The notes below the pieces were generated by a model that worked only from the letters and a program-made list of their open reading frames with translations, was not told where the DNA came from and did no database searches. 64,000 bases of DNA from contig CACYPS010000010.1 in assembly GCA_902776305.1 (NCBI GenBank), positions 1 to 64,000 of the forward strand, given 5' to 3'. Every line of letters begins with the position of its first letter. The stretch's first letter is position 1. The DNA is from an uncultured Lachnospiraceae bacterium. GTDB taxonomy: Bacteria; Bacillota; Clostridia; Lachnospirales; Lachnospiraceae. Positions 7,021 through 57,235 of the stretch are shown one piece after another. The translations under genes and the position numbers were made by a program.

Positions 7021-7045
7021 TTCGATCCGGCGTTCATTTGTCTTC

Positions 7046-11616: not shown

Positions 11617-11644
11617 TAATTACGCCAATTCATAGGTAGTATCG

Positions 11645-11677
11645 CAGGTGCCGTTCAAAAAAACGGGCGGTCATCTG
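11645..11677. repeat. hairpin resembling repeat family C
   Basis: CAGGTG (11645-11650) pairs with CATCTG (11672-11677) with one G-T wobble, and CCGTT pairs with AACGG inside it. The right arm GGTCATCTGAC is identical to the right arm of the family C hairpin. It may be a diverged member. It ends 25 bases before the next start codon. Confidence 0.4.
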
Positions 11678-11702
11678 ACACATTTTCGGAATGGAGTGCA
11701 TT

Positions 11703-12083: not shown

Positions 12084-12197
12084 CGCAGTGCAGGAAATGC
12101 ATGCACTGCATGCCGTTACGTCCGCGCGACATAAGCAATCATCACAGGCCTGATCAGGAAAAATCCGATTTTGATACGAGGAAGGATTTAATACGTT

Positions 12198-39627: not shown

Positions 39628-39680
39628 GTGATCCGACACTTGCAGACATCTGAAAAAAAGAATACGAGGTGTTTACTATT

Positions 39681-40769: not shown

Positions 40770-40850
40770 AAATAGTCTCAGACATGTGGAGGTTTCGACA
40801 ACTTGGTTCTGAATCAGATAGGAAATGAGTACAAGGGAGCAGCAGTAGAC

Positions 40851-41696
40851 ATGAGAGTTCTTGTCACCGGAGCGAACGGATACATCGGAAGACATGTTAT
40901 CCCGGAGCTTTTATCCAGAGGCGTGAAGGTGACGGCTGTGGATCTTCATTGTGATGCGGTGGATGGACGCTGCGATACGATCGAAGCGGATATACTCAGT
41001 ACCGGAGACGGCTTTTATGAGAAAGCCGGAAAGCCGGATGCATGTATCCATCTCGCATGGAGGAACAGCTTCGAGCATAACAATGAGAGTCATACAACAG
41101 ACATGGAGAAACACTATCGTTTTCTTTCCGGTCTTGTCGATGACGGACTGCCTCAGCTCATGGTCATGAGCACTATGCACGAGGTGGGCTATTTTGAAGG
41201 AGCCATAACCGAGGATACACCGACCAATCCGGTCACTGCCTACGGAATCGCAAAAAACGCATTGAGAAAGAAGATGACCGACTACTGCAGAGAGAAGAAT
41301 TGTATCCTGCAGTGGATCCGGGGATTCTATATTGTCGGTGACGATGAACACAATAATTCGGTATTCACGCGTATGGTGGAAGCCAGTAAGACCGGGAGTG
41401 GGCCGTTCCCGTTCACAACAGGCAGGAATAAATTTGATTTTATCGGCATCGATGAACTGGCCGGTCAGATCGCAGCGACCATCATGCAGAAGGAAGTCTG
41501 CGGAATAATAAACTGCTGCAGCGGTATCGCTGTTCCGCTGGCGGATGAAGCGGAGAGATTTCTGAAAGAGCGCAAGATGGATATACAGCTTGACTACGGA
41601 AAATACCCCGAGAGGGAGGATGCCTCCCCGGCGGTCTGGGGCGATCCGACAAAAATCAGAAAAATTATGGAAGCGGACAAGGGAAGAAAGGAATAA
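40851..41696 (+). CDS. NAD-dependent epimerase/dehydratase family (SDR)
   Basis: It is 281 residues from ATG 40851 (MRVLVTGANGYIGRH), with AAGGGAG 11-12 bases upstream. GANGYIG is the nucleotide motif; YxxxK is in TAYGIAKNALRK. It is not RfbD (which is at 62138) and sits between rfbA and rfbC, so it may modify a dTDP- or other sugar of the same polymer. The stop is 2 bases before the rfbC start, so the two are coupled. Confidence 0.82.
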   Translation: MRVLVTGANGYIGRHVIPELLSRGVKVTAVDLHCDAVDGRCDTIEADILSTGDGFYEKAGKPDACIHLAWRNSFEHNNESHTTDMEKHYRFLSGLVDDGLPQLMVMSTMHEVGYFEGAITEDTPTNPVTAYGIAKNALRKKMTDYCREKNCILQWIRGFYIVGDDEHNNSVFTRMVEASKTGSGPFPFTTGRNKFDFIGIDELAGQIAATIMQKEVCGIINCCSGIAVPLADEAERFLKERKMDIQLDYGKYPEREDASPAVWGDPTKIRKIMEADKGRKE

Positions 41697-41698: not shown

Positions 41699-42262
41699 AT
41701 GGGCAAAATTACGGTTGAAACATGTGACATAGAGGGACTTAAGATTATTACTCCTACCGTTTACGGCGACAAGCGCGGTTATTTCATGGAGACTTATAAC
41801 TACAATGATTTTGCAGCTGCGGGAATTGACTATCAGTTCGTTCAGGACAATCAGTCCAGCTCCGTCAAAGGAGTTCTTCGCGGTCTGCATTTTCAGATCA
41901 ATTATCCGCAGGATAAGCTCGTTCGCGTAGTCAAAGGCGAGGTCTTTGATGTTGCGGTAGACCTTAGAGAAGGATCGAAGACTTACGGGAAGTGGTTCGG
42001 CGTTCTCCTTTCCGCTGAGAATAAGAAGCAGTTCTTCATCCCCAAGAATTTTGCCCATGGCTTTGTCGTTCTGAGTGATGAAGCGGAATTCTGCTATAAG
42101 TGCACGGATTTCTATCATCCGAATGATGAAGGCGGGCTTGCATGGAACGATCCGGATATCGGCGTCGAGTGGCCGATTCCGGAGGGCATGGAGCTGAATC
42201 TTTCCGAGAAGGACCAGAAATGGGGAAGCTTCAAGGAGTATACCGAAAAGTATCATAAGTAA
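41699..42262 (+). CDS. rfbC: dTDP-4-dehydrorhamnose 3,5-epimerase
   Basis: It epimerises dTDP-4-keto-6-deoxyglucose at C3 and C5. It is 187 residues, normal length. The catalytic His64 is in SVKGVLRGLHFQ; KLVRVVKGEVFDVAVDLR and FAHGFVVLSD are family hallmarks. AAGGA lies 8 bases upstream. It commits the branch-point intermediate to L-rhamnose, completed by rfbD at the far end of the polymer block. Confidence 0.97.
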   Translation: MGKITVETCDIEGLKIITPTVYGDKRGYFMETYNYNDFAAAGIDYQFVQDNQSSSVKGVLRGLHFQINYPQDKLVRVVKGEVFDVAVDLREGSKTYGKWFGVLLSAENKKQFFIPKNFAHGFVVLSDEAEFCYKCTDFYHPNDEGGLAWNDPDIGVEWPIPEGMELNLSEKDQKWGSFKEYTEKYHK

Positions 42263-42401
42263 CAGATAGAACATAGAATGAAAAGGGCTGTTGCATACAC
42301 GTGTAATATAACTGTATCGGTCGTTGTTTCGGAGATATGGTCATATGCGCTTTGTGTGGCAGCCCTGTGTTTTTGAGAAGGGAACAGGCAGCGGGAAGTT
42401 T

Positions 42402-44225
42402 ATGGCAGAGCAAGTGATCAGAAAGAACCGTCAGGCGGTATATTGCTTTTATGATAAAGATGGGATCGTCGACGGGTATGTTCCTTTCTTTCTGAAAGGG
42501 CTCAGGGAAGTGGCGGACGGCATATGTGTCGTTGTGAACGGCGAGGTGTGTGAACGCGGTCTCGAACTCCTCCGTACATATTCCGATGAAGTCATTTTGC
42601 GTCCGAATGACGGCTATGATGTCACGGCCTACAAGGCCGGTCTGGAGCATATTCTGTCCGAAAAAGAAGATGTTTCTTCCGTGATCCTGTGCAACAACAC
42701 ATTGTTCGGACCGTTCCGGCCTTTTTCGGAGATGTTCGAGGAGATGGAGAGCCGGAATCTTGATTTCTGGGGCATCACAGCGTTCGAGGGAGATCCGGGG
42801 GATCCGTTCGGCACGATCCGATACGGATATATTCCGGAGCACGTGCAGTCTTTCTTCATGGTGTTCGAGAGGAGATTCCTTAAGGCGGAAGACTTCGGAT
42901 GCTGGTGGAAGCAATTGCCTGCGATACATCGCTACGAGGAGGCAATCGGATACTTTGAGGCTGTCTTTACCAAAGATATGAGTGACCTCGGGTACCGCTG
43001 GGACGTCTACATGAATTGTCCCGAGCTCCGAGGATACTCGAAGGATCCGCTGCGCGATTTTCCGCGTTATCTGATCGAACAAAAGGGATGTCCGGTCATG
43101 AAGAAGCGGTCCTTCTTCCACGAGTACGGGGAAGCCTTCGAGAGGAGCGGCGGCGAGGCCACAAGGGAAGCCTTCGAGTACCTTGAGCACGAGACGGACT
43201 ATGATACGGATCTCATCTGGGAGACGATCCTCAGGACCGAGAACATGGCTGCCGTAAAAAGGCGTCTGCATCTCAATTTCACGCTTCCGACGGAATGCTT
43301 AAGGAAAAGCGGTCCCGAGCAGACGAGCCTTGCCGTAATCGCGCACATCTATTATCCGGAACTTGCTGAAAATATGGCGTCATACGCCGCGCATCTCCCG
43401 GAAGGGACTCCTATATACATTTCCGTTCCGGCAGGAGATACGCCCGAAAAGGTAAAGAGCGCATTTGCCCCGCTCGAACAATCACACAGGGTCGAGATCA
43501 GGTCGATAGAAAACCGGGGACGTGACCTCATGCCGTTCCTTATGCTTTGGAGGGACGTCATTTTCAGATATGATGTGATCCTCAAAGTCCATGATAAGAA
43601 GGTGCCGCAGCTGCCGCAGCTGTCCACCGGCCGGTCATGGGAGAAGATGTGTTTTGAATGTCTGATGCCCACGGAAGTATATGTACGGAATGTACTGGAT
43701 CTCTTTGCAAAGAACAAAAGGCTGGGACTTCTCACGCCTCCGCCTCCCGTTCACGCGGATTACTATCCGACGATCGGACATGGGGAATGGGGAGAAAATT
43801 ATGAGGGAGTCAGAAAGATTGCTTCGGAGCTGAACATCCGGGTTTCCGTGGAGAGAGAGTGGGAGCCTGTGGCGCCGTTCGGCTCAGAGTGCTATATCCG
43901 CTCGGAGGCTCTCAGAACGCTGTTCTCAAAGGACTGGTCGATCAACGATTTTCCGAAGGAACCTACCCCGGCAGATGCGACGCCGCTCCATGCGATTGAG
44001 AGAGTAATCCCGTTTGCCGTGCAGAATGACGGGTACTATTCCGGATGGCTCATGTCCGATCGGTGGGCGCCGGTCATCCTTGACAATCTGACATATCTGA
44101 CGCATACGCTGAAAAGCCGGGAGAGCGCACTGTGCGGCGGCTACATGCCCTACAGGTTCTTTATGGACCGGCTCAGTCACATTCCCGGGGAAGATGTAGA
44201 CAGACCGGAGGAAGGTCTGCAATAA
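42402..44225 (+). CDS. RgpF-like rhamnan synthesis protein, copy 1
   Basis: It is 607 residues from ATG 42402 (GGGAAG upstream); in-frame ATGs at 42324 and 42345 are less likely. It has RgpF-family stretches AVYCFYDKDGIVDGYV, VVVNGEV, RPNDGYDVTAYKAG, LCNNTLFGPF, FWGIT and, in the second half, IENRGRDLMPFL, VHDKK and GLLTPPP. RgpF is needed for rhamnose-glucose polysaccharide in streptococci and is regarded as a glycosyltransferase. No membrane segment is obvious. It is followed 3 bases later by a second RgpF-like gene. Confidence 0.88.
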   Translation: MAEQVIRKNRQAVYCFYDKDGIVDGYVPFFLKGLREVADGICVVVNGEVCERGLELLRTYSDEVILRPNDGYDVTAYKAGLEHILSEKEDVSSVILCNNTLFGPFRPFSEMFEEMESRNLDFWGITAFEGDPGDPFGTIRYGYIPEHVQSFFMVFERRFLKAEDFGCWWKQLPAIHRYEEAIGYFEAVFTKDMSDLGYRWDVYMNCPELRGYSKDPLRDFPRYLIEQKGCPVMKKRSFFHEYGEAFERSGGEATREAFEYLEHETDYDTDLIWETILRTENMAAVKRRLHLNFTLPTECLRKSGPEQTSLAVIAHIYYPELAENMASYAAHLPEGTPIYISVPAGDTPEKVKSAFAPLEQSHRVEIRSIENRGRDLMPFLMLWRDVIFRYDVILKVHDKKVPQLPQLSTGRSWEKMCFECLMPTEVYVRNVLDLFAKNKRLGLLTPPPPVHADYYPTIGHGEWGENYEGVRKIASELNIRVSVEREWEPVAPFGSECYIRSEALRTLFSKDWSINDFPKEPTPADATPLHAIERVIPFAVQNDGYYSGWLMSDRWAPVILDNLTYLTHTLKSRESALCGGYMPYRFFMDRLSHIPGEDVDRPEEGLQ

Positions 44226-44228: not shown

Positions 44229-45941
44229 ATGTTCATAGACAGAAATTCGCGAAACAGATGCATAATATTTCTATATTACGATAAGGACGGACTGGTCGAT
44301 CGATATGTGACCGGTCTTCTTGACGCGCTCAAAAGCGTCTCCTCGTACGTGCTTGTTGTGGTGAACGGCTACGTGACAGGGGAAGGCGAGGCCGAATTGA
44401 GGAGCCACGCGGATTCTGTACTTGTGCGCGTCAACACCGGTTTTGATGTCGGGGGATACAGGGAAGGTCTTTTCTGGATCGGTTTCGAGAGGCTTTCGGC
44501 GTATGGCGAACTGATCCTGATGAACTATACATTTTTTGCGCCGCTGTTCCCGCTCCAGGAAATGTTCGGCGAGATGAGCGGCCGTGATCTCGATTTCTGG
44601 GGCATTACGAAGCATCACGACGTTCCGACGGACACGACGGGCGGCCGGATCCGTTACGGCCATATTCCGGAGCATCTGAATTCACATTTTCTTGCCCTGA
44701 GAAGAGACTTTTTCCTCAGTTACAGCTACCGGGATTTTATCATAAACATGTCCGATCCCATTTCCTACGAGGCGTCCATCAACGAGTATGAGGCGATCTT
44801 TACGAGGCATTTTGCGGATCTCGGCTATAAATGGGATGTATACTCCAACACCGATGCATTTGAGGGCGTCGTGTACGCCCCATTTATGTTCGAGGGGGGA
44901 GAGCTCATCAAGGAGCGCTGCCCGATCATAAAGCGCCGTCTCTTCTTCGGCGACTATTTCAGCCTGCTGGCGAATTCCGCCGGGGAGAGCTACAGCGACG
45001 CCTGCAGGGCTTTGCGGGAGCTGACCGATTACGACATGTCCATGATCTGGGACAATCTTCTGAGACTGCAGGATTTGAATTCGGTGCGCTATGCGATCCA
45101 TGAATCCTACGTGGTCGATTCGGAAGTCTCAAAGGGGAAGATTTCTGCAAATGAAGCCTGCGTTCTCGTCATCGGCACCAAAGAGCAGGGTGACTTTCTT
45201 GCGGGAAGATACCTGAAGCAGATTCCGGCAGAATGCGATATTCTGTATTCGAATGAAATACCACAGTCAATTTCCGAATTCGGAAGGCTGTTCGCTTCGC
45301 CGGATCTTAGGAAATACAGATATGTATGTGTTCTGAAACTTCCGGAAAGCGCATACGAGGACATGGGTTCGACTTTTTACGGAAGCGCGGAAAGCCTCAT
45401 CGGTTCGGCTTCCCAGACAGAGAACACTGTGCAGATATTCAGAGATAACCCCGAACTCGGGCTGCTCGTGCCGCCTCTGCCCACTTTCGGGAGGCATTTC
45501 CATGAGGCGGAGGACGGCTGGCACGGGAGATATGAGGAAGTTCGAGCGGTCACGGACGCTCTCGGCTTCACCTTCCCGATCCTCAGGGGAGAAATGCCGC
45601 CGGTATGGCCGGCAGGCGGAAGCTTCTGGGTGAGAGGAAGTCTGCTCATGGAGATCTTTGAGTCTCATGAAGTGTCGGATGTGCTGAGCCGCGAGATTCG
45701 TCTTTCTGACGGAAAGAACGTGAAGCCGGACTTTGAGCTGATCATGCTGCTTCTTCCCTACCTTTTCCAGAGCAGGAAGCAGATGACGGGGACGGTCACG
45801 GGTTCGCACTATGCTTCCGTTCAGCTGACGAACCTGGATTACGAACTGAGGGAAAACAATAAGGTCCTCTTTGAAAAAATCCGACCGGGTGCCTGGTGGG
45901 AGGTTCTGAAAAAGCTCGACCGAATCGGAGAAAATGTATGA
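44229..45941 (+). CDS. RgpF-like rhamnan synthesis protein, copy 2
   Basis: It is 570 residues and a paralogue of the preceding protein: IIFLYYDKDGLVDRYV, VVVNGYV, RVNTGFDVGGYREG, LMNYTFFAPLFPL, FWGITKHHD, YGHIPEHLNSHFL and, late, GLLVPPLPTFG. The second half lacks the GRDLMPF motif seen in copy 1 and is more diverged, so this copy may have lost or changed one function. It overlaps the next gene by 4 bases (ATGA). Confidence 0.85.
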   Translation: MFIDRNSRNRCIIFLYYDKDGLVDRYVTGLLDALKSVSSYVLVVVNGYVTGEGEAELRSHADSVLVRVNTGFDVGGYREGLFWIGFERLSAYGELILMNYTFFAPLFPLQEMFGEMSGRDLDFWGITKHHDVPTDTTGGRIRYGHIPEHLNSHFLALRRDFFLSYSYRDFIINMSDPISYEASINEYEAIFTRHFADLGYKWDVYSNTDAFEGVVYAPFMFEGGELIKERCPIIKRRLFFGDYFSLLANSAGESYSDACRALRELTDYDMSMIWDNLLRLQDLNSVRYAIHESYVVDSEVSKGKISANEACVLVIGTKEQGDFLAGRYLKQIPAECDILYSNEIPQSISEFGRLFASPDLRKYRYVCVLKLPESAYEDMGSTFYGSAESLIGSASQTENTVQIFRDNPELGLLVPPLPTFGRHFHEAEDGWHGRYEEVRAVTDALGFTFPILRGEMPPVWPAGGSFWVRGSLLMEIFESHEVSDVLSREIRLSDGKNVKPDFELIMLLLPYLFQSRKQMTGTVTGSHYASVQLTNLDYELRENNKVLFEKIRPGAWWEVLKKLDRIGENV

Positions 45942-47011
45942 AGAAACTTATAATGAAGTGTGCGGATGAGAGAAGACGGGCATTTGCAATGATTACCTCC
46001 GTATGGGAAGACGACGGAAAGCGGTTCGTCGAAAAGTGCGCCGTCCACAAAGAGGGCAGAAGACACCTTGAGAATATGATACGGTATCAGACGCTCCTTG
46101 ACGAGATTTATCCGGGCGTACGTGCGTGCCCGGCAAAGCTGACTGAGAACGGTCTGGTTTTTGACTTTATCGAAGGGAGTTCTCTTGAGGACCGCTACCG
46201 CCTGGCCGCTTCTGAGGGTGACCGGGATGCCCTGGTCCTGTATATGAAAAGCCATGCAGAACTGCTCGATTCTGTGCCCGGCGGAACTGTTCCGTTCGAG
46301 GAGACGGACAGCTTTCGGGAGTGGTTCGGGGACGGAAGAGTCTATGCGGGCAAGCCGGCCTACAGGGCAGCCAATTTTGATGCGACCGCTTCAAATATCA
46401 TTCTGCAGGATGGGGAGCCGGTCTTTATCGACTATGAATGGGTGACGGAATTTCCCGTTCCGCGGAATCTTGTCGTCTACCATGCGATCCGTGACAGCTA
46501 CTACCACATTCCAGAATTGGAGAGCCTGCTTCCTCTCGCGGAGGCGATAGCCCTTGCCGGCGTCGAGACGGAACAGGAGATCCTGCAGAGGAGCTATGAA
46601 CATTTCTTTTTCAGCTATGTCTACGGCAGTGACTCGGATGCGGGGCTTTCGGTCCTGACGGACCGCAAAAAGATCGATTATCTTGCAAATGAGCGCACCC
46701 TCCTCGCAGAACGCATGTGGAGAGAAAATGAGAGGGCAGTCCTCGTGCAGCGGTCAGAGATAGACCGTCTCACGAAGGAACTGGAAGAAGCGCGGAAGAA
46801 ATATGCGGACCTCGATCAGTCGTGGTTCTGGAGATGGGACGAGACAAGGGACGCTCTGCAAAAGTTCAGGGAAGAGAACGCCGCTCTCCGGGAATCTCTG
46901 AGACTCATGGAACAGGATCGGGATACCTGGAAATCCAATTTCGAGACGGTGACGAATTCCCGCTCCTACAAGGATATGATGAAATTAAAGGGGATTCTCG
47001 GGCGCAAGTAG
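45938..47011 (+). CDS. kinase-fold protein with C-terminal coiled coil
   Basis: It is 357 residues from ATG 45938 (GGAG 7 bases upstream, overlapping the previous stop). The aminoglycoside/choline-kinase-like core shows a catalytic loop NFDATASN (D148, N153) and a DFG-equivalent IDYEW (D165), with spacing as in active kinases; the usual His before the catalytic Asp is replaced. From about residue 265 a long heptad-like, Glu/Lys/Arg-rich coiled coil runs to the end. In E. coli O9a, WbdD joins a kinase, a methyltransferase and a coiled coil to cap and measure the chain. Here a separate methyltransferase lies at 50056, beyond Wzm/Wzt. The equivalence is inference. Confidence 0.75.
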   Translation: MKKLIMKCADERRRAFAMITSVWEDDGKRFVEKCAVHKEGRRHLENMIRYQTLLDEIYPGVRACPAKLTENGLVFDFIEGSSLEDRYRLAASEGDRDALVLYMKSHAELLDSVPGGTVPFEETDSFREWFGDGRVYAGKPAYRAANFDATASNIILQDGEPVFIDYEWVTEFPVPRNLVVYHAIRDSYYHIPELESLLPLAEAIALAGVETEQEILQRSYEHFFFSYVYGSDSDAGLSVLTDRKKIDYLANERTLLAERMWRENERAVLVQRSEIDRLTKELEEARKKYADLDQSWFWRWDETRDALQKFREENAALRESLRLMEQDRDTWKSNFETVTNSRSYKDMMKLKGILGRK

Positions 47012-47028
47012 GCATAAAAGCGCTCAGC

Positions 47029-47057
47029 TTGCACAGGTATTCTTTCGATGCTATAAT
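47029..47057 (+). promoter_or_regulatory. promoter of the ABC exporter genes
   Basis: TTGCAC (47029-47034), 17-base spacer, TATAAT (47052-47057). It shares GATGCTATAAT with the rfbB promoter. It gives a leader of about 65 bases before ATG 47131. Confidence 0.8.
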
Positions 47058-47130
47058 ACTTAGGATTATGGCAACTACTCAGCACCCGATTCGCAGGTGC
47101 TTTAGATTACAGACACAAGGAGCATACAAC

Positions 47131-48522
47131 ATGTCAAAGAAACTGAAGTTGATTGCTGTTCTCGGCATCCTTCTTGTCATTCTTCTCAATATCGGTATCC
47201 TGAAGTGGCACAGCCGGGGCGGGGCGGCATTCACGGGGAAGATGACAATCCGATCGGACATATCAGACAATGTCCAGATTTTCTATTCGGGTCCCGAGAA
47301 CGCTTACGGAGAAAGTACGAGCACGATTGCAGGATATCCCGCCGAGGGACAGAAGATCGGCGATGACTGCGAGCTGGAATTTACGGCCGGGTCTCAGACC
47401 GAGTTCCTGCGGATTGATTTCGGCGCGGCAGCAGGTACCTGGGATATCGGCAGCCTGACTGTGGCCTACGGCGATACGGTCGATAAGATCGACCTCGAAG
47501 CGGCAGCGGGGAGTGCGGTGCAGAATGACATCGCATCGATGACCTTTAAGAACGGCGTTCTGCATGTGGAGACGAAAGCGGGGGATCCGCATATCGTGAT
47601 CCCGGTCGAACTCGCACAGACGAAAGCCGCAGCCCTGGCAAGCACGCAGAGAGCCGACTGGATCATCCGTATTCTGGCGCTTCTTCTGCTTGACGGAGCG
47701 TTCATCGCGGCATTTGTATTCAGAAACAAGTTCCTGACTCTTCCGATAGAGATATTTGAGAACAGGCAGCTCATTTTCAAGCTCGCCAGCAACGACTTCA
47801 AGACAAAATATGCCGGATCGTATCTGGGTATCTTCTGGGCGTTCGTTCAGCCGGTCGTCACGGTCCTGGTGTACTGGTTCGTCTTCTCGGTCGGCTTCAG
47901 GAGCGGGCGTGTGGCGGAGGTTCCCTTCGTCGTCTATCTGGTATCCGGTATCGTTCCGTGGTTCTACATCCAGGATCTCATGAATTCCGGCACCAACGCC
48001 TTGATTGAGTACAGTTATCTGGTCAAGAAGGTCGTGTTCAAGATCAGCGTGCTGCCGATGGTAAAGGCCATTTCAGCCCTGTTCGTGCACTCTTTCTTTG
48101 TAGTGCTGACGATCCTGATTGCGGCGCTTTACCGTATCTGGCCGAGCCTCTACACACTGCAGGTCCTTTACTATTTCATCTGCATGTTCGTATTCGGTCT
48201 CGGCATAACTTACGGGACATGCGCGATCGTAATTTTCTTCCGCGACTTGTCGCAGATCATCAATATCATCCTGCAGATCGGCGTTTGGACGATCCCGATC
48301 ATGTGGAACCTGGATATGGTCCCGGCGAAATATCAGTTCATTTTCAAGATCAATCCGATGTTCTATGTTATCAACGGGTACAGACAGTCTATATACGGAC
48401 ATGTCTGGTTCTGGCAGGACCTGAAGCTCACGATCTATTTCTGGGCCGTGACGGCAGTCCTGTTCGTGATCGGTTCCGTTATATTCAAGAGACTTAAGAT
48501 ACATTTTGCGGATGTGCTTTAA
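47131..48522 (+). CDS. wzm: polysaccharide ABC exporter permease with extra N-terminal domain
   Basis: It is 463 residues from ATG 47131 (AAGGAG 8 bases upstream); the longer in-frame reading upstream overlaps the kinase-like gene in another frame and is rejected. The C-terminal 260 residues are an ABC-2 permease of the Wzm/TagG type with about six helices. In front lies an unusual module: a membrane helix (about 5-23), an extracytoplasmic beta-rich domain (about 30-165) with LRIDF at 93-97, and a second helix (about 173-195). Typical Wzm is about 260 residues, so this is a fusion. Wzt follows after repeat D3. Confidence 0.9.
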   Translation: MSKKLKLIAVLGILLVILLNIGILKWHSRGGAAFTGKMTIRSDISDNVQIFYSGPENAYGESTSTIAGYPAEGQKIGDDCELEFTAGSQTEFLRIDFGAAAGTWDIGSLTVAYGDTVDKIDLEAAAGSAVQNDIASMTFKNGVLHVETKAGDPHIVIPVELAQTKAAALASTQRADWIIRILALLLLDGAFIAAFVFRNKFLTLPIEIFENRQLIFKLASNDFKTKYAGSYLGIFWAFVQPVVTVLVYWFVFSVGFRSGRVAEVPFVVYLVSGIVPWFYIQDLMNSGTNALIEYSYLVKKVVFKISVLPMVKAISALFVHSFFVVLTILIAALYRIWPSLYTLQVLYYFICMFVFGLGITYGTCAIVIFFRDLSQIINIILQIGVWTIPIMWNLDMVPAKYQFIFKINPMFYVINGYRQSIYGHVWFWQDLKLTIYFWAVTAVLFVIGSVIFKRLKIHFADVL

Positions 48523-48573
48523 TGAGAATGACCGTATCCGGGCCGGTGCCTGTTGGAGCATAAGACGACTCGA

Positions 48574-48652
48574 ATCTTTTAATCTCTGACGCAGGATTCG
48601 CGTGACGCGAGTCTATGATGAATGCGCAAAATGAAACTTGTCTCTGACATGG
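48574..48652 (+). repeat. dispersed element, family D, copy 3
   Basis: It contains TTTTAATCTCTGACGCAG as in copy 1, a stem GATTCGCG/CGCGAGTC (48595-48602 with 48606-48613, one G-U), then GATGAATGCGCAAAATGAAACTT and GACATGG as in copy 2. It sits between wzm and wzt, so it must be read through for their joint expression. CGACTCGAATC just before it could compete for the same stem. Confidence 0.7.
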
Positions 48653-48686
48653 AATACAAGATTGAAAAGAAGGAGCACTTATATAG

Positions 48687-50045
48687 ATGAGTGAAACAGA
48701 AAAAGTCCTGGACGGGAACGTGAAAGAGCAGGAGAGCAGCGGCAAAAAAGTGGCTGCTCTTCAGGTCACGCATCTCTCCAAGATGTACAGACTATATGAC
48801 AAGCCCTCAGACAGACTGAAAGAGGCACTGGGACTGTCCAGACAGAAGAGATACCGCGAGCTCTACGCCCTCAATGATGTGAGCTTTGTGGTCAATAAGG
48901 GCGAGACGGTCGGTATCATCGGAACGAACGGTTCCGGCAAATCGACTATTCTGAAGATCATAACGGGCGTTCTCTCACCTACTGCCGGTGACGTAAAAGT
49001 CAACGGCAGGATTTCTGCGCTTCTGGAGCTGGGTGCGGGATTCAACATGGAATATACAGGTATGGAAAATGTCTACCTGAACGGTACGATGATGGGATTT
49101 TCGAGGGAAGAGATCGAGAAGAGAGTACCGGAAATTCTTGCATTTGCGGATATAGGAGACTTTATCAACCAGCCCTGTAAGACATATTCGAGCGGTATGT
49201 TCGTCAGACTGGCCTTCGCGGTTGCCATCAACATTGACCCTGAGATACTGATCGTCGATGAGGCGCTCTCGGTAGGTGACGTATTCTTCCAGGCTAAGTG
49301 CTATCACAAGTTCGAGGAGTTCAAGAAGCAGGGCAAGACGATTCTCTTCGTAAGCCATGACCTTGGCAGCATCTCCAAGTACTGCGACAGAGTCATCCTG
49401 CTCAACAAGGGCGTCAAGATGGATGAGGGAAATCCCAAGGAGATCGTTGACCTCTACAAGAAGCTTCTTGTCCACATCGAGGACGGGGGAGAAGGCACTG
49501 AGGGTGAAAATGAGCAGGAAGCGCTCTCGCCCGAGGAACAGGAAAAGCGCGCCATGGAGACAGGCGGTCTCACGGGCGGGCTCCCGAAGAATCCAAATAC
49601 GCTGGAATACGGTGAAGGTCACGCGTCAATCGTTTATGTCGCGACTATGGATGCGGCGGGAAATGTCACGAGTTCCATCGAAAAGGGAACGGAATTCTCT
49701 ATCCGCATGCGCGTGAAGTTCAATAAGGACGTGAGCGAACCGATTTTCGCATACACATTTAAGAACCTGCAGGGTACGGAAATTACCGGCACCAACACGA
49801 TGTTCGAGGGGATACCCGTCGGACCGAGAAAAGCAGGAGATGACATCGTGATCACATTCCGACAGAAGATGGACCTGCAGGGAGGAGAATATCTGCTGTC
49901 CTTCGGATGTACCGGATATATGGACGGAGATTTCAGGGTGTTCCACAGACTTTACGATATCCTGAACGTCACGTGTGTATCTCCGAAGAACACAGTCGGT
50001 TTCTATGATATGAATTCCCAGATCACCACAAAGCTGCTTAATTAA
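48687..50045 (+). CDS. wzt: polysaccharide ABC exporter ATPase with C-terminal domain
   Basis: It is 452 residues. The N-terminal ABC ATPase has Walker A GTNGSGKST (79-87), the signature SSGMFVRLAF and Walker B ILIVDEALSVGD. An acidic linker (about 265-300) leads to a C-terminal beta-sandwich of about 150 residues (from YGEGHASIVYV), the Wzt-C arrangement. In E. coli O9a this domain binds the capped end of the polymer and gates export. Its presence suggests that a terminal structure is recognised here too. It starts 165 bases after wzm and is followed 10 bases later by the methyltransferase gene. Confidence 0.93.
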   Translation: MSETEKVLDGNVKEQESSGKKVAALQVTHLSKMYRLYDKPSDRLKEALGLSRQKRYRELYALNDVSFVVNKGETVGIIGTNGSGKSTILKIITGVLSPTAGDVKVNGRISALLELGAGFNMEYTGMENVYLNGTMMGFSREEIEKRVPEILAFADIGDFINQPCKTYSSGMFVRLAFAVAINIDPEILIVDEALSVGDVFFQAKCYHKFEEFKKQGKTILFVSHDLGSISKYCDRVILLNKGVKMDEGNPKEIVDLYKKLLVHIEDGGEGTEGENEQEALSPEEQEKRAMETGGLTGGLPKNPNTLEYGEGHASIVYVATMDAAGNVTSSIEKGTEFSIRMRVKFNKDVSEPIFAYTFKNLQGTEITGTNTMFEGIPVGPRKAGDDIVITFRQKMDLQGGEYLLSFGCTGYMDGDFRVFHRLYDILNVTCVSPKNTVGFYDMNSQITTKLLN

Positions 50046-50055
50046 CGGAGAGAGT

Positions 50056-50979
50056 ATGGAATACAGAGAGACAATCGGAAATGTCGTACTAAATACCGAG
50101 GATTATCCGGGACGTGATCTCTACTCGGACGGTGAGATAGAGGACGTCCTCCTTGACATTGCGAAAAATACGGATCCAAGGGATTTTGACAAGGTAGTCG
50201 AGGAGAGGGAGAGCTGGCCGGTCATGTATCATTTCTCCACGATCCGGACCAATATCATGAGCTGGATGCCGATCGACCGCAGTATGAAAGTCCTGGAGAT
50301 CGGGTCCGGCTGCGGCGCGATCACCGGCACGATCGCGGAGAAAGCCGGAAGCGTCACATGTGTGGAGCTGTCCAGAAAGAGAAGCCTCATCAATGCATGG
50401 CGCAACCGGGAGAAAGATAACATCGAGATCCGTCTCGGCAACTTCGAGGATGTTGAGAAGAAGCTCGAAACCGACTATGACATGATCACCCTGATCGGCG
50501 TCTTTGAGTACGCGCAGGGATATATATCATCCGGCACGCCCTACAGGGATTTCCTTGCCATCATACTCCGGCACCTTAAGCCGGGCGGACAGCTGGTCAT
50601 AGCCATAGAGAACCGCCTGGGCATGAAATACTTTGCCGGCGCCACGGAAGATCACAGCGGAAAGTATTTCGAGGGAATCGAGGGCTACAGCGATACGAGC
50701 AGGGCGAGAACATTTTCAAAGCCTGAACTCGAAGCACTCCTTACGGAAGGCGGAATTTCCGACTTTACCTTCTACTACCCATATCCGGACTATAAGTTCC
50801 CGATGTCGATCTACTCGGACTATTATCTTCCGAAGCGCGGTGAACTTCGCATGAACCTTGCCAATTTCGACAGGGAAAGGATGATTCTTTTCGATGAGAC
50901 GCAGGCGTACGATTCACTTGTTGACAGCGGGCTCTTTCCGCTGTTCTCCAATTCATTTCTTGTCGTAGCGCGCCGATAG
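50056..50979 (+). CDS. class I SAM-dependent methyltransferase
   Basis: It is 307 residues. SAM motif I is VLEIGSGCGAITG (G83-S-G-C-G87), followed by an acidic residue at the end of strand 2 (TCVELSRKRS), then LIGVFEYAQGY and LKPGGQLVIAIENRLG (motifs II-III). The C-terminal part has YYPYPDYKFP. GGAGAGAGT upstream fixes the start. Position right after wzt and five bases-pairs of context within the export block suggest it methylates the polymer or its cap; the acceptor is not shown by the sequence. Confidence 0.88.
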   Translation: MEYRETIGNVVLNTEDYPGRDLYSDGEIEDVLLDIAKNTDPRDFDKVVEERESWPVMYHFSTIRTNIMSWMPIDRSMKVLEIGSGCGAITGTIAEKAGSVTCVELSRKRSLINAWRNREKDNIEIRLGNFEDVEKKLETDYDMITLIGVFEYAQGYISSGTPYRDFLAIILRHLKPGGQLVIAIENRLGMKYFAGATEDHSGKYFEGIEGYSDTSRARTFSKPELEALLTEGGISDFTFYYPYPDYKFPMSIYSDYYLPKRGELRMNLANFDRERMILFDETQAYDSLVDSGLFPLFSNSFLVVARR

Positions 50980-51034
50980 ACCGGCAGGTGTACCCGAAAA
51001 CTATTGCATCAGACTTTTGATTTAGAGGAAGCCT

Positions 51035-54000
51035 ATGATTATTTTTACGAAATATTCAAATGACCGCCGTCCTGAACTCGCTATCCGCACGGATATCATC
51101 GAGGACGGAGGCGTAAAGTCTGTTATCAAGGCAGCTGCAGATCCCCGTGCATCAGCGCACATGAACGGTCTTATGGACAGCTATCAGGGACTCATGCGCA
51201 TATTTGACAAGACGCGGTTCATTCCGAACCGGTGCACTGCCGGTGAGGGATTCTGTTCCTTTGAGTTCCTTGAGGGAGAGATGCTCGAGGAACATATGGA
51301 TATGCTTCTTGAGCGCCCGGACGAACTGGTCGGAGCGCTTCGGGAATACTTCGATGAGCTGATCAAGGCCGCGGACACCGATTATGTAAAGACAGATGAT
51401 TATGTCCGCGTTTTTGGGGATATCAACACATCGGGAACACGGGCCTTCTCTGTGGCCAATATTGATATGGTACTTAATAATGTGATTGTCAGGGACGGCT
51501 GGAACGTAATCGATTACGAGTGGACGTTCCATTTTCCCGTGCCCGTCAACTATATCATCTGGAGAGTATACCACTACTATGTGGACGTGAACATGAAACG
51601 GCAGTTCCTTCACGATTACAACATCCTCCCGTCCTACGGGATCACGGAGAAGGATATTGCCGGATACGAGCAGATGGAGACGAACTTCCAGGCTTATGTT
51701 ACGGGGGATAAGGTCGCACTGCGCGATTTATATCCTGTCATTTCCCCGGGTCACGTCGTGATCGGCGAGCTTCTCGAAGCATACAGCCAGAAAAATGAGA
51801 AGCGCACTGTCACGCTCTTCCCTGAAAAGGACGGAACTTTCACGCCTGATCACATGATCGTAACGTACTCTGCCCCGCAGGGTATCTACAAGCGGACGAT
51901 TCGTCTCGGAGGATCTTCCATGCTGCGAATCGACCCGACCGAGGCAGCCGTCATCGTTCACGTGAACAGCCTGACTGCCGACGGAGTGCCCCTCGACCTC
52001 TCGAAAGCGATCATAAACGGAAGACTTCTGGGTGACAACGACCTGATCTTCACGGAAGAGGATCCCTGGTTCATACTGACCGATATTCCGAAAGGATCGG
52101 AAAGCGTGGAGGTCGACATGAAGGTGCTTCCTCTCGATGAAGGCTACACAGCTGCATGGCAGAAAGTGTCGGCCGCGATGAAGGAGCAGGAGTCGGTGAA
52201 CGCCGCTCTGAAAGACAGAATCGAGGAACAGAAGACTCTGATGGCCGGTATGCGGCGTGCCGCGCGGCTTTCCCAGAATATAATCGATAACAGGAACCAC
52301 GCCATCAATGAACTGGGCGATACCAAAGTTCTTCGCCTCTACCGCAAAGTCCGGGCAAGCAGAAAGCAGGATGACCCGATCGCACGATTCCGTCCGAAGA
52401 TCACCAACGACGGGTCGGAGATCCTCTACAATATCGATAATGTCACGGCACACGACAGCTACCTTCTGATTCACGGGTGGACTGTGGATACATTGTTCGG
52501 CAATGAGATCCTTCAGGTCGTGGACGCGGAAGGACATGAAGTAAAATGCAGCATTCTCCGCTCCTTCAGGGATGATGTCGCGGAGCAGCTCAAGTTCGAT
52601 CCGGAGAGACGGCCGGGCTTTGAAATCCGGATCCGCTACAGCAGGATCGGAAGCCTGCCGCTCACGCTCAGAATCGAAGATCCGCGGGGATATCTCGAAG
52701 TGCCGGTAGAAGGCGTGGACGAGGCGGAAATCGAGCGCGGAAAACAGGGTGAGATCGTTTACGAAGCGACAGAAGGCCGCCCGATGGAGTATGACGACTA
52801 CTCCAGAAGGGGAAGGGCAAGTCATGAGGAACTCCGCAGACAGCGCAAGAAGACATTCGCCTTCGAACCGCTCGTGAGTTTCTGTATGCAGGTCTACAAC
52901 GTATCGAACAAGAACCTCAGAAAGATGATAGACTCCCTTCTGTCTCAGAGCTATCGGAAAGTGGAAATCTGCATCGCTGACGGCAGCACGAACGATGAGA
53001 CAAAGAAATTCATTGAGGACAGTTACGGCACGGAAGCGAAACTGCGCTATGTCCGGCTCGAGGAAGACCCAGTCACTGCGTCCAACCTCGCGGAAGCGAT
53101 GAAGATCGCATCCGGAGATGTGATCATTCCGGTCGACGCCAATGACATAGCGGATCCGCGGACAGCCTATGAAATAGTGAAATATATGAACCGTGAGGAC
53201 GCGGACGCCGTCTACACGGATGAGGACAGGGTAACCCCGGAGGGATTCTTCTACACTTCACCGAAGTTCAAACCGGACTACAGCCCGGATTATCTGAGAA
53301 GCAATAACTATATCGGCAGCTTCTTCGCGGTAAGGCGTGAGGTGCTTGAGAAAGCCGGTCTGCCGGATCTCAACTACGGCGACGCTTACATGTACGATTT
53401 CATTTTCCGCTGCTGTGAAAATGCCCGCAAAGTAGCCCATGTACCGATCGCCCTCAGCCACAGACGGATCAATCCGGCGAGACTGCTCGAAAATCCCGAC
53501 AGTATCGAAGCGGAATATATCTGTGAAATGCGCGCGATCGATGCGCACTTAAAGCGCGTCGGAATCGACGGCAGGAGCGAAAGAGGTCCGATAAGAGGCG
53601 GATATCACGTAAAGGCCAGGGTCTCGGGAAGACCTCTCGTATCGATCATCATCCCCAATAAGGACCACATGCTGACCCTTCGCAGAGCGATCGATTCGAT
53701 CATGGGCAAGACCACTTACGGAAATTACGAGATCATTATCATCGAGAACGGCAGTACCGAGGAACAGACTTTCCTCTACTATGAGAGACTGGAACACAGG
53801 TACCCGAACGTCAGGGTCCTGACATGGGATAAGCCGTTCAACTACTCCGCAATCAATAACTTCGGTGTGAAAGCGGCGAACGGAAGCTACCTTCTGTTCC
53901 TCAACAACGACGTCGAAGTGATCACGCCGGATTGGATCGAGGAAATGCTCTCCATATGTCAGAGGGAGGATTGCGGAGCCTGCGGAGCAAGGCTGCTCTT

Positions 54001-54502
54001 CCCGGATAATACAATTCAGCATGTCGGAGTAGTGGTAGGTATGGGAGGCGCCGCCGGCCATATGTTCAGCGGCGAGGAGGCATCATCTCCTCACAGCGAC
54101 CCCAGATCCTGTCTGACTCAGAACCTGAGCGCCGCGACGGCCGCCTGCCTGATGGTGAAGAGAGAAGTATTTGAAGAAATCGGCGGATTTGATGAGGAAT
54201 ATACGGTCGCGTTCAACGATGTGGACCTGTGCCTTAAGGTGCGGGAGGCAGGCTATCTGGTGACGGTGAATGCATTTGCACAGCTCACCCACTATGAATC
54301 CCTGACACGCGGAAGTGACAAGGCAAGAGATGACAGCGAAAAGCATGAGAGATTCCTGAGGGAGTCCCGCAATATACGAGAGCGCTGGGAGAAGTATTTC
54401 AGAGACGGCGATCCGTATTTCAATCCGAATCTGGATGCAGCACGCGGAGATTTCGCGTTCGTCGGAGAGTATCCGAAGCTCGCAAATCAGGAAGAAGAAT
54501 AG
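51035..54502 (+). CDS. kinase-fold domain fused to two GT2 modules
   Basis: It is 1155 residues. Order: kinase-fold domain (about 1-240) with NIDMVLNN (D144, N149) and IDYEW (D160), paralogous to the protein at 45938; beta domain with LRIDP (297-301); short coiled region (about 385-420); 'GW' beta domain (W482) with RDDVAEQ and GFEIRI; GT2 module A (about 610-830); GT2 module B (about 866-1130) with FNYSAINN, LNNDVEV and FNDVDLC. Module A lacks the expected DHDD; it has D701-A-N-D704, and its first strand reads FCMQVYN instead of VVPLYK, so it may be inactive. GAGGAAGCC upstream of ATG 51035. It heads a run of four double-GT2 genes. Confidence 0.88.
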   Translation: MIIFTKYSNDRRPELAIRTDIIEDGGVKSVIKAAADPRASAHMNGLMDSYQGLMRIFDKTRFIPNRCTAGEGFCSFEFLEGEMLEEHMDMLLERPDELVGALREYFDELIKAADTDYVKTDDYVRVFGDINTSGTRAFSVANIDMVLNNVIVRDGWNVIDYEWTFHFPVPVNYIIWRVYHYYVDVNMKRQFLHDYNILPSYGITEKDIAGYEQMETNFQAYVTGDKVALRDLYPVISPGHVVIGELLEAYSQKNEKRTVTLFPEKDGTFTPDHMIVTYSAPQGIYKRTIRLGGSSMLRIDPTEAAVIVHVNSLTADGVPLDLSKAIINGRLLGDNDLIFTEEDPWFILTDIPKGSESVEVDMKVLPLDEGYTAAWQKVSAAMKEQESVNAALKDRIEEQKTLMAGMRRAARLSQNIIDNRNHAINELGDTKVLRLYRKVRASRKQDDPIARFRPKITNDGSEILYNIDNVTAHDSYLLIHGWTVDTLFGNEILQVVDAEGHEVKCSILRSFRDDVAEQLKFDPERRPGFEIRIRYSRIGSLPLTLRIEDPRGYLEVPVEGVDEAEIERGKQGEIVYEATEGRPMEYDDYSRRGRASHEELRRQRKKTFAFEPLVSFCMQVYNVSNKNLRKMIDSLLSQSYRKVEICIADGSTNDETKKFIEDSYGTEAKLRYVRLEEDPVTASNLAEAMKIASGDVIIPVDANDIADPRTAYEIVKYMNREDADAVYTDEDRVTPEGFFYTSPKFKPDYSPDYLRSNNYIGSFFAVRREVLEKAGLPDLNYGDAYMYDFIFRCCENARKVAHVPIALSHRRINPARLLENPDSIEAEYICEMRAIDAHLKRVGIDGRSERGPIRGGYHVKARVSGRPLVSIIIPNKDHMLTLRRAIDSIMGKTTYGNYEIIIIENGSTEEQTFLYYERLEHRYPNVRVLTWDKPFNYSAINNFGVKAANGSYLLFLNNDVEVITPDWIEEMLSICQREDCGACGARLLFPDNTIQHVGVVVGMGGAAGHMFSGEEASSPHSDPRSCLTQNLSAATAACLMVKREVFEEIGGFDEEYTVAFNDVDLCLKVREAGYLVTVNAFAQLTHYESLTRGSDKARDDSEKHERFLRESRNIRERWEKYFRDGDPYFNPNLDAARGDFAFVGEYPKLANQEEE

Positions 54503-54523: not shown

Positions 54524-57235
54524 ATGTCACAAGATTCGTTAGAATACAGAGAGCTGAAGAACAGCTATGACCTGCTCAAGAAACAGTATGATGAACTTGC
54601 TGCGGAAAACGCAGGCGGCAGAACGGTGAAGATCTACAGAAAGATCGGCGAGACCTATGACGAGGAACCGGCTCTTGAGATACCTGTAGGTCGTGACGGC
54701 GATATTGCCGTCGAACTCCCGCTCGGCGACGCAGCGGAAGTGCGTGTCGAACTTGGACATATGCCGGCTTATGTCCGCGTGGCGGGCATATCGACCGATC
54801 AGGGCGTTCTGACAACGGAAAGCATGAAGGGCACTTTTCAGTCCATCACCGGGAACATCTGCATATTCCCGAATATGGACCCGGATTTTGTCGTGAGTGA
54901 GTGGATGGCGGGATCCCGTGTGTTCTACTGCCGTCTGAACGTGCTGACGCTGTCCGCTGAGGTGGCTCCGCTCGTCGCGCAGGAAATCGGAAACCGCGAT
55001 GAGGAAGTCAGCCATCTCCGCATCGTGGACCGCCACAGAATGGAACTCCTGATTGAGCGCAGCGCGCTTCTGCGCGCGATTGCGGATCTCAAGGTCGTGC
55101 GCACATACAGACAGATGCGCCGTATGATGAAGAAGGACGATCCGTTCAGCCGCATACATCCCCGCCTCAAAAATGATACGGAGGGGATCTGCTATTACGT
55201 TGATGAGATCACTTACCACAAAGAGGTGTGCGTCCTGCGCGGCTGGGTATTTGACCGCGAATACCTGATCAGCGAGATAAAAATCCTGAACGCCAAAAAA
55301 CAGCCGATCAACTGCAAGATCATGCGCCAGATCCGCAATGACGTTGCGGACCAGTTCTGCCTGGACCCGAAGGATCGCCAGGGCTTCTCGATCTCGATCA
55401 ATTATGAGGATATCCACGATCTGCCGCTGTTTTTGGAGATTCATGACCTTCGCGGTTTTGTACGCAGAAAGCTCAATTATGAGCCGGATGCGGAAAAACA
55501 GAAGATCGTGGAAGAGAACCGGAACAGCGCTTACATCGATTATAACGACTGGGCCATCGATCACAGAGCCACAAAAGATGAACTGGAGATTCAGAGAAGG
55601 AAACAGTTCCGCTATGAGCCGAAGTTCTCCGTGGTCGTGCCTCTTTATAAGACGCCCGAGAGATATCTTACGGAACTTGTTGACAGCATCAAGGCACAGA
55701 CTTATACCAACTGGGAACTGATCCTCTCGGACGGCAGCGGTGAGAACTCTCCGATAGACGGAATCCTTACGCAGCTGGAAGAGTCGGACAGCAGGATCAA
55801 AGTCGTCCGCAACAGGCAGCAGCTTCACATTTCGGAGAATACCAATGCCGCTCTCGAGGAAGTCACCGGCGATTACGTTGTATTCTGCGATCACGATGAT
55901 ATCTTATCGCCCGAAGCGTTCTTTGAAAATGTGCGCATAATCAACAAATATCCGGGCACGGAAATGATTTATTCGGATGAGGATAAGATCCTGGATGACT
56001 GGATGCTCACGGAACCGCATTTTAAACCGGACTTCAATCTTGACCTGCTGCTCACGAACAATTACATATGCCATCTGCTGGTCGTCAGCAGAAAGCTTCA
56101 GGAGAAAGTCGGCGGACTCGACCCTGCATTCGACGGCGCGCAGGATTACGATTTTGTACTTCGTTGCGTGAGCGAGACAAAGAATATCAGACATATCCCG
56201 AGAGCACTCTACCACTGGCGCATTTCAGCCACATCGACCGCGGAAAATCCTGAATCCAAGGAATACGCATTTTATTCGGGCAAACGCGCAGTGGAGGCTT
56301 ACTACAAGCGGGCTGGAATTCCTGCCGAGGTGTCCATGACGGAAGCGGCAGGCTGGTACAAGACGACCTATCACTGGGACAGTGAACCGCTCGTATCGAT
56401 CGTCATTCCGAATAAGGACCATAAGGAAGACCTCGAAAGATGTATCAATTCGATAGAGGAGAAGAGTACTTACAGGAATTACGAGTACATTATTGTTGAA
56501 AACAACAGTGTTGATCCGCAGACTTTCAGCTATTACGAGAAGCTGAAGAGCGATCTGCCGAATCTAAACGTTGTGACCTACAAGGATGCATTCAATTACT
56601 CGGCTATCAACAATTACGGCGTCAGTTTTGCGAGAGGAGAGTTCATCCTCTTCCTCAATAATGACACGGAAGTCATAAATCCCGATTTCATGAAGGAAAT
56701 GCTCGGCTACTGTCTGCGAGAGGATGTCGGAGCATGCGGAGCCCGTCTGTACTATGAGGACGGTTCCCTGCAGCACGCAGGCGTCGTGGTCGGTCTCGGA
56801 GGGCTTGCGGGACACCCGTTCGCCAAAACAATCCATGATGATCACGGTTATATGAACCGGATCGCGTCGGCGCAGGATCTCTCAGCAGTCACAGCCGCCT
56901 GCATGATGATGAAGAAAACCGTGTTCAATCTGGTCGGCGGTTTCTACGAGGGGATGGCTGTCGCCTTTAACGATGTTGATCTGTGCATGAAGATCACCAA
57001 GGCCGGTTACCGTATCGTGTATAATCCGGCAGTGGAGCTTTATCATTACGAGTCAAAGTCCCGCGGAAATGAGGATACCAAGGCCAAGGTGGCAAGATTT
57101 GAACAGGAAGTTGCGCTGTTCAGGGAACGCTGGCCGGAGATCCTGGAGAACGGAGATCCCTATTACAATCCGAACTTCACTTTACGACGCACCGGGTACG
57201 CGCTTCGCGAGAAGGACGAACCTGCGCAGGGATGA
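54524..57235 (+). CDS. double GT2 glycosyltransferase (tandem paralogue 2)
   Basis: It is 903 residues. A short N-terminal coiled region (about 1-28) is followed by a beta domain (VRVE at 73-76 in the LRIDP position), a linker with VRTYRQMRRMMKKDDPF, a 'GW' domain (W241; RNDVADQ, GFSISINY), GT2 module A (about 365-605) with D456-H-D-D459 and YSDEDK, and GT2 module B (about 622-870) with FNYSAINN, LNNDTEV and FNDVDLC. Both modules look intact. It most resembles Myxococcus RfbC-like double transferases. GGAGG upstream; it starts 21 bases after the preceding stop. Probably cytosolic, building the exported glycan. Confidence 0.9.
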   Translation: MSQDSLEYRELKNSYDLLKKQYDELAAENAGGRTVKIYRKIGETYDEEPALEIPVGRDGDIAVELPLGDAAEVRVELGHMPAYVRVAGISTDQGVLTTESMKGTFQSITGNICIFPNMDPDFVVSEWMAGSRVFYCRLNVLTLSAEVAPLVAQEIGNRDEEVSHLRIVDRHRMELLIERSALLRAIADLKVVRTYRQMRRMMKKDDPFSRIHPRLKNDTEGICYYVDEITYHKEVCVLRGWVFDREYLISEIKILNAKKQPINCKIMRQIRNDVADQFCLDPKDRQGFSISINYEDIHDLPLFLEIHDLRGFVRRKLNYEPDAEKQKIVEENRNSAYIDYNDWAIDHRATKDELEIQRRKQFRYEPKFSVVVPLYKTPERYLTELVDSIKAQTYTNWELILSDGSGENSPIDGILTQLEESDSRIKVVRNRQQLHISENTNAALEEVTGDYVVFCDHDDILSPEAFFENVRIINKYPGTEMIYSDEDKILDDWMLTEPHFKPDFNLDLLLTNNYICHLLVVSRKLQEKVGGLDPAFDGAQDYDFVLRCVSETKNIRHIPRALYHWRISATSTAENPESKEYAFYSGKRAVEAYYKRAGIPAEVSMTEAAGWYKTTYHWDSEPLVSIVIPNKDHKEDLERCINSIEEKSTYRNYEYIIVENNSVDPQTFSYYEKLKSDLPNLNVVTYKDAFNYSAINNYGVSFARGEFILFLNNDTEVINPDFMKEMLGYCLREDVGACGARLYYEDGSLQHAGVVVGLGGLAGHPFAKTIHDDHGYMNRIASAQDLSAVTAACMMMKKTVFNLVGGFYEGMAVAFNDVDLCMKITKAGYRIVYNPAVELYHYESKSRGNEDTKAKVARFEQEVALFRERWPEILENGDPYYNPNFTLRRTGYALREKDEPAQG

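Follow-up and report, generated by a model that had tools for sequence, protein, structure and literature searches.

A putative split methyltransferase-kinase terminator, with an orphan second kinase, in a probable rhamnose polymer locus of a Lachnospiraceae bacterium

The window analyzed here, i.e., the 64,000-nt stretch comprising bases 1–64,000 of contig C10 from a 4.08 Mb Lachnospiraceae genome of 128 contigs, contains a putative rhamnose polymer locus in which all genes around the finding are located on the + strand (Table 1). A gene encoding a kinase followed by predicted helices (KIN1) overlaps the second of two RgpF-family genes (RgpF2) and is followed by genes for an ATP-binding cassette (ABC) exporter (Wzm and Wzt), an S-adenosylmethionine (SAM) methyltransferase, and a 1155-amino-acid (aa) protein with an N-terminal kinase domain (KIN2). 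The methyltransferase and this 1155-aa protein probably represent a Gram-positive split form of the methyltransferase-kinase terminator described as ORF6-O7 in Klebsiella pneumoniae, accompanied by KIN1 as an orphan second kinase. An earlier note on this DNA had proposed that KIN1, the exporter, and the methyltransferase form a split version of WbdD, the chain-capping protein of Escherichia coli O9a; Pfam searches bear out the flanking genes that it named (two RgpF proteins and Rml genes) as well as an exporter with a Wzt-C-type ATPase and the SAM methyltransferase. The KIN2 domain, located beyond the coordinates covered by that note and overlooked there, begins the next gene, 55 bases 3′ of the methyltransferase.

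Linkage of kinase and methyltransferase was assessed in two sets of loci, both counted by one script. The kinase-found set includes 40 loci, drawn from 40 (mostly the better-scoring) of the 74 further genomes in which the kinase was matched, while the methyltransferase-found set includes the best 80 of at least 554 loci; the sets overlap (L039/L112, L073/L093, and L071/L096 look like identical places), and counts refer to loci, not independent events. All 41 kinases in the kinase-found set were accompanied by a homologue of the methyltransferase, which was either fused (14) or directly adjacent (27), and a kinase was present in all 80 loci of the methyltransferase-found set (52 fused, 28 adjacent); fused open reading frames (ORFs) showed the domain order methyltransferase-kinase. 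A Wzt_C domain was encoded ≤5.5 kb upstream in 40/41 and 78/80 cases, including 34 and 74 cases, respectively, where it was directly upstream. Because the same genes recur jointly in 120 counted loci (some shared between sets), this co-occurrence is not due to chance, and the earlier proposal of a conserved module of kinase, methyltransferase, and cap-binding type Wzt on separate genes, linked as in capped O-antigen systems, is thus upheld. The window methyltransferase showed 31–61% identity to 39 homologues (alignment A2). Judged by record titles, loci in the methyltransferase-found set were mostly from Lachnospiraceae and unplaced Eubacteriales or Clostridia, and also from Clostridium puniceum, C. 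weizhouense, and an Enterococcus sp.; L093 is from the culturable species Anaerosacchariphilus polymeriproducens. Among sampled genomes, with that of the window included, the kinase was present in 38/42 genomes of the genus, 75/200 of the family, and 7/398 of the phylum, and the methyltransferase profile (E up to 1e-30) matched 9/196 genomes of the class. No title or abstract describing the pair in Gram-positives was listed in searches of the open-licence PubMed Central literature.

Comparison with 20 loci fetched from the same genus revealed two cassette types. In 15 loci (L182–L196; type A), a KIN1-type kinase directly follows the methyltransferase or is fused to it (L183, L185, L188), and the pair is located 3′ of Wzm-Wzt-RgpF-RgpF where the contig shows it. 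Type B is represented by L197 and L198, with the order Wzm-Wzt-methyltransferase-KIN2 and no RgpF, and by L181, with a partial Wzt-methyltransferase-KIN2. The window and its closest relative, L179, present RgpF-RgpF-KIN1 without a methyltransferase, followed by Wzm-Wzt-methyltransferase-KIN2. The window methyltransferase is 68–69% identical to those of L197/L198, with which it groups in a tree, and 46–49% identical to those of type A; the tree partner of KIN1 (L058; support 1.0) shows the type A arrangement. Since KIN1 groups with type A and the methyltransferase with type B, KIN1 originates from a type A cassette, the methyltransferase of which is not present here; judged by gene order and tree position, two terminator cassettes are combined as a mosaic in the window. 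The pairing of KIN1 with the methyltransferase made in the earlier note is therefore replaced by a pairing with KIN2, KIN1 belonging to the other cassette type. Between the window and L179, synonymous divergence (dS) was approximately 0.06 for Wzt and the methyltransferase, 0.17 to 0.33 for KIN1, KIN2, Wzm, and RmlC, and 0.14 for part of RgpF2, as if the segment 48687–50979 had been recently exchanged.

KIN1 is a 357-aa ORF with an ATG start. Kinase conservation was evaluated in alignments A1 (42 of 43 kinase stretches; the excluded row, the second kinase of L046, was below the score limit and scored in two pieces), A3 (60 rows, i.e., 58 of the 80 kinase stretches from methyltransferase-found loci and both window kinases), and A4 (54 rows, i.e., 53 of those 80 stretches and one more). 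The catalytic residues D148, N153, and D165 reported as retained in KIN1 by the earlier note were confirmed from coordinates and alignment; together with K33, they do not vary among the 42 A1 sequences or the 60 A3 sequences. In the full 43-sequence set, N153 and D165 are present in 43/43 and D148 in 42/43 sequences; F130, G131, and P175 are invariant in A1 and variable in A3. K32, D144, N149, and D160 of KIN2 are invariant columns of A4. L046 carries two successive methyltransferase-kinase ORFs (6705–12875; 1431 and 622 aa), a doubled terminator in which one copy is perhaps inactive. No fitting Pfam or NCBIfam model was found for the kinase domain, either in the single protein or across 42 members; among these members, each of the 16 Pfam families matched did so in a single member, the best being DASH_Spc34 at 7.1e-5, which was regarded as chance, and kinase-like NCBIfam matches were to thiamine kinase (two members, best 1.8e-4), to Bud32 models (a few members), and to a macrolide phosphotransferase (one member, 0.051). 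In AlphaFold 2 (AF2) models, the kinase domains of both KIN1 and KIN2 adopt a predicted fold resembling that of aminoglycoside phosphotransferases (APH), with AmiN among the best folds. KIN1 and KIN2 share 30% identity over 181 aa (76 bits). A recent duplication as their origin was ruled out by this identity and by a tree including all 123 kinase stretches, in which KIN1 grouped with L058 (see above) and KIN2 with L078–L081 (support 0.888).

Long helices are predicted in the KIN1 model at residues 242–288 and 294–340, and no beta domain is present; the C-terminal coiled coil proposed in the earlier note is likely from these helices, while a crude heptad score does not clearly exceed shuffles. 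KIN1 is 96% identical in genome G606 and, compared to L179, presented a ratio of nonsynonymous to synonymous divergence (dN/dS) of 0.09 (dS 0.17), within the span of six neighbours compared (0.03 to 0.11); by these sequence comparisons, KIN1 is under constraint and kept by selection. In genome G614, a KIN1 relative (L180:4626–5894) is located among unrelated genes, outside any polysaccharide cluster on the contig, and contains an in-frame insertion in the middle of the protein; this isolated and interrupted copy suggests that orphan KIN1 copies can decay.

ORF6-O7 (gene cluster MN173773.1) has been described as a methyltransferase, a kinase domain of 223 aa that lacks annotation and is nearest in fold to AmiN, an immunoglobulin (Ig)-like carbohydrate-binding module (CBM), a coiled coil, and two glycosyltransferase family 2 (GT2) modules; acting on a mimic of the repeat unit, it caps the terminal rhamnose at position 3 with methyl-phosphate, by phosphorylation and methylation, and no product was obtained with its D441A variant (PMC11231755). 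Orthologues were reported from alpha- and gammaproteobacteria and cyanobacteria, with relatives in Gluconacetobacter and Methanoculleus, and the C-terminal GT2 modules are missing from some orthologues; the terms Gram-positive, Clostridi, Firmicutes, and Lachnospir do not occur in the main text (PMC11231755). A tblastn search of plasmids identified two proteobacterial proteins of ORF6-O7 build, from Pseudomonas asturiensis and Citrobacter, adjoining annotated ABC transporter permease and ATPase genes; KIN2 alone as query gave one chance match. The A2 methyltransferase profile scored 211 bits on the P. asturiensis protein and 206 bits on the Citrobacter protein. Profile-profile comparison of the kinase segments, in which the catalytic motif was aligned in register, gave a probability of 96.8 (E 2.5e-10, 201 columns), versus 0.2 for an unrelated control pair; in the P. 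asturiensis protein, the conserved Asp occupies position 443, near D441 of ORF6-O7. In addition, a 1356-aa protein from a Lachnospiraceae metagenome-assembled genome combines methyltransferase, kinase, GT2, and GT2 in a single chain.

The window shares with ORF6-O7 a methyltransferase and, following it, an APH/AmiN-like kinase domain with the catalytic Asp and no family-library annotation (both homologous through these relatives), two C-terminal GT2 modules on 51035–54502 by Pfam, a predicted beta domain and helix between kinase and GT2, Rml genes, and Wzm/Wzt. By contrast, the methyltransferase is here a separate gene, which makes the pair a split variant rather than a strict member of the type; the Gram-positive host, the orphan second kinase with its own helix, the RgpF proteins, and a downstream LytR-CpsA-Psr gene are further differences. 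Given the homology and architecture of the relatives and of the fused metagenomic protein, we interpret the two window proteins as a split version of the ORF6-O7 terminator type. From the model, the beta domain (residues 258–366) is possibly an Ig-like/CBM domain as in ORF6-O7. In L078:10918–13044, a post-kinase beta domain seemingly occurs twice in one protein (286–347, 421–507). A stretch of ~170 residues between the helix and GT2 of the 1155-aa protein (residues 441–612; 52355–52870), without a Pfam match, recurs in the products of 54524–57235 and 57251–59647 (35% and 28% identity).

The window Wzt_C domain scored 135.5 bits against a curated cut-off of 30.4 (PF14524); the genome contains four matches to this model, of which one falls below the cut-off and that of the window is the strongest. 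The nearest solved structure to the window domain by sequence is PDB 2r5o (E 1.1e-7), which we take to be the O9a Wzt domain. The Wzt C-terminal domain of Aquifex binds a methylated end sugar, reading 3-O-methyl sugars (PMC9445017); by analogy, the domain identified here may read a methyl-phosphate cap. The Wzm permease contains ~190 extra N-terminal residues (47131–47580 region) outside the Pfam match that, by eye, appear membrane-anchored with an outer part; permeases of 460–492 aa are recurrent among the complete ones of L183–L198, and Wzm proteins of ~270 aa occur as well.

With regard to neighbouring genes, RgpF2 is split into two ORFs in L179 (7734–9446) and L185 (5207–6930), representing either a true break or an assembly fault. 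The epimerase-like protein encoded by 40803–41696 has a counterpart with 92% identity in L179 and counterparts with 59–61% identity in type A loci L183, L186, L187, and L191; no counterpart was found in the remaining same-genus loci, several of which end there. Past the window end, the contig encodes GT2 proteins, a bacterial sugar transferase (PF02397), and a LytR-CpsA-Psr protein, genes that fit a wall-attached polymer made on a lipid carrier.

Table 1. Coordinates of the features described, as positions in the window
Feature	Position	Strand	Basis and remarks
RmlB	38494–39576	+	Pfam GDP_Man_Dehyd and Epimerase; name read from position in rml cluster
RmlA	39669–40550	+	Pfam NTP_transferase; name from position in rml cluster
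NAD-dependent epimerase-like protein	40803–41696	+	Between RmlA and RmlC
RmlC	41699–42262	+	PF00908, 249 bits
RgpF-family protein 1, type A cassette	42324–44225	+	PF05045, 531 bits
RgpF-family protein 2 (RgpF2)	44229–45941	+	PF05045, 309.5 bits; 4-base overlap with KIN1 start
KIN1, orphan terminator kinase (putative)	45938–47011	+	Kinase domain residues 1–230, ~100 helical residues, short C-terminal helix
KIN1 helical region	46661–46957	+	Residues 242–340; AF2 (pLDDT model confidence by blocks 60–81)
Wzm permease	47131–48522	+	Pfam ABC2_membrane; 463 aa counted from ATG at 47131 (start chosen by us); extra N-terminal part
Wzt ATPase, cap-binding type C-terminal domain	48687–50045	+	Pfam ABC_tran, Wzt_C
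Wzt_C domain	49599–50012	+	E 3.7e-40
SAM methyltransferase, type B terminator (putative)	50056–50979	+	307 aa; Pfam Methyltransf_12, 1.3e-9
1155-aa protein (KIN2, beta domain, long helix, GT2, GT2)	51035–54502	+	
KIN2 kinase domain	51035–51727	+	Residues 1–231; K32, D144, N149, D160
Beta-rich domain	51806–52132	+	Residues 258–366 of 1155-aa protein; DSSP of AF2 model
Long helices, candidate ruler	52139–52363	+	Residues 369–443 of 1155-aa protein; AF2
Three double-GT2 proteins, candidate polymer synthases	54524–57235, 57251–59647, 59637–62060	+	Pfam GT2, two stretches each
RmlD	62138–63049	+	PF04321, 321 bits

Under our preferred reading, i.e., a split terminator of the ORF6-O7 type, GT2 and RgpF proteins would build a rhamnose-rich chain on a lipid carrier, the KIN2 domain would phosphorylate its terminal sugar, and the methyltransferase would methylate the terminal phosphate, the latter two steps as in ORF6-O7. 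The helix between the kinase and the GT2 modules may set a minimum chain length, and the Wzt C-terminal domain would read the cap before export by Wzm/Wzt, as suggested by O9a and Aquifex; the end cap would thus stop growth of the rhamnose polymer and permit its export, a strategy mainly known from Gram-negatives. KIN1 would represent a second terminator kinase, from an alternative RgpF-RgpF-methyltransferase-KIN1 cassette whose own methyltransferase is missing, and may either share the methyltransferase that is still present or leave its product with a bare phosphate.

Several observations weigh against this reading. ORF6-O7 itself was compared by description, with the P. asturiensis and Citrobacter proteins standing in by architecture; the kinase profile scored 24.6 bits on the former protein and 5.0 bits on the latter, in the right place in both, and the in-register profile match of the beta domain to the P. 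asturiensis stretch is weak (probability 7.7). In the heptad test, 91 and 20 of 500 shuffles reached the scores of the two KIN1 helices, and 91 reached that of one KIN2 helix. The second L046 terminator, the lone exception at D148, carries Gln in place of the catalytic Asp, and Asp in place of G131. KIN1 copies without an adjoining methyltransferase occur in the window, L179, and L180, and the isolated L180 copy fits a relic. No assay or polymer structure was found for a member in these Gram-positives, and the cap may be another phosphate form, by analogy with the cyclic phosphate reported for Clostridium difficile SLCT-11.

A split WbdD orthologue, in which KIN1 would correspond to the WbdD kinase and ruler and 50056–50979 to its methyltransferase, would account for the same kinds of parts, for the methyltransferase-kinase-tail order shared by fused relatives, and for a Wzt_C domain nearest to 2r5o (the O9a domain). 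WbdD likewise combines methyltransferase, kinase, and coil (a predicted helix here) with an ABC-exported chain; however, WbdD is a single chain that acts on a mannan and has a eukaryotic-type kinase domain (PMC3482155), whereas the window parts are encoded by separate genes. While the KIN1 model does predict a kinase fold, as the earlier note expected, the best folds are APH-like, unlike the eukaryotic domain of WbdD (PMC3482155), and by cassette type the methyltransferase goes with KIN2 rather than KIN1. WbdD was also not recovered as a direct homologue by sequence: the kinase profile matched 13 PDB chains at E up to 10, mostly the JAK1 N-lobe (E 0.11 and up) and otherwise unrelated proteins, with no WbdD among them. 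The best 60 of 193 PDB chains matched by the methyltransferase profile at E up to 1 were other methyltransferases and included no WbdD; WbdD was absent from the best 50 rows of each fold list as well, although absence there proves nothing. Together with the profile homology to proteobacterial proteins of the ORF6-O7 type, these results do not sustain WbdD as the specific relative, and we regard a split WbdD as very unlikely. A methyl group could instead be placed straight onto the terminal rhamnose, with the kinase-fold domain serving only as a scaffold or for acceptor binding, as might be suggested by WsaE, a methyltransferase-GT-GT protein (GT, glycosyltransferase) of the Geobacillus stearothermophilus S-layer glycan system that produces a 2-O-methyl cap and involves Wzm/Wzt (PMC2943079), and by the 3-O-methyl sugars read by Aquifex Wzt (PMC9445017). 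The window resembles the WsaE system as a Gram-positive rhamnan locus with a methyltransferase, GT modules, and Wzm/Wzt; it differs in the use of separate genes and in the kinase domain between methyltransferase and GT2, no kinase being described for WsaE in the available text (PMC2943079). The invariance of K33, D148, N153, and D165 would be unexpected in a dead domain, and ORF6-O7, with the same layout as described, phosphorylates its acceptor and is inactivated by D441A (PMC11231755), which makes this alternative highly improbable.

Wall rhamnans often bear phosphate, and the kinase could add a cyclic phosphate or phosphodiester side group, while the methyltransferase acts on another sugar and no methyl-phosphate terminator is formed. 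The SLCT-11 S-layer glycan, a clostridial rhamnose glycan that is also exported by an ABC system, ends in a cyclic phospho-rhamnose and thus shares a phosphate-bearing terminal rhamnose with the product envisaged here; its phosphate is cyclic, however, and the words kinase and methyltransferase are missing from the main text (PMC6254364). In all loci of both sets, the two domains are fused or adjacent, and Wzt_C is directly upstream in 34/41 and 74/80; these findings argue against such decoration, which seems improbable. A more serious alternative, though still one that we hold only tentatively and that is compatible with the split ORF6-O7-type terminator, is that KIN1 is a decaying leftover without a role and that only the 50056–54502 pair matters: its own methyltransferase is gone and the G614 copy is isolated and carries an insertion, whereas the window copy is intact, has kept the A1 invariant residues and the 4-base overlap with RgpF2, and shows the G606 identity and low dN/dS given above. 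It is also conceivable, if rather doubtful, that a single methyltransferase is shared by two rulers of different design, both of which phosphorylate (KIN1, whose helix stands alone, and KIN2, which is tethered to a polymerase), so that one exporter would handle two chain populations differing in ends or lengths, as a general control of length and export for ABC-exported rhamnans in Lachnospiraceae.

For the stopping and release of ABC-exported rhamnose polymers in Gram-positive gut Clostridia, a kinase family without a Pfam model, tied to a methyltransferase in every counted locus, provides a concrete enzyme pair and a candidate end group, methyl-phosphate on rhamnose. While the methyltransferase-kinase kind of terminator is itself known from ORF6-O7, a split terminator in Gram-positives would be new. 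The rhamnan family includes an immune-active member, the glucorhamnan of Ruminococcus gnavus (PMC12413058). If our reading is true, chemists would be directed to a small cap that is easy to miss, and terminator-coupled export would extend to a large Gram-positive group.

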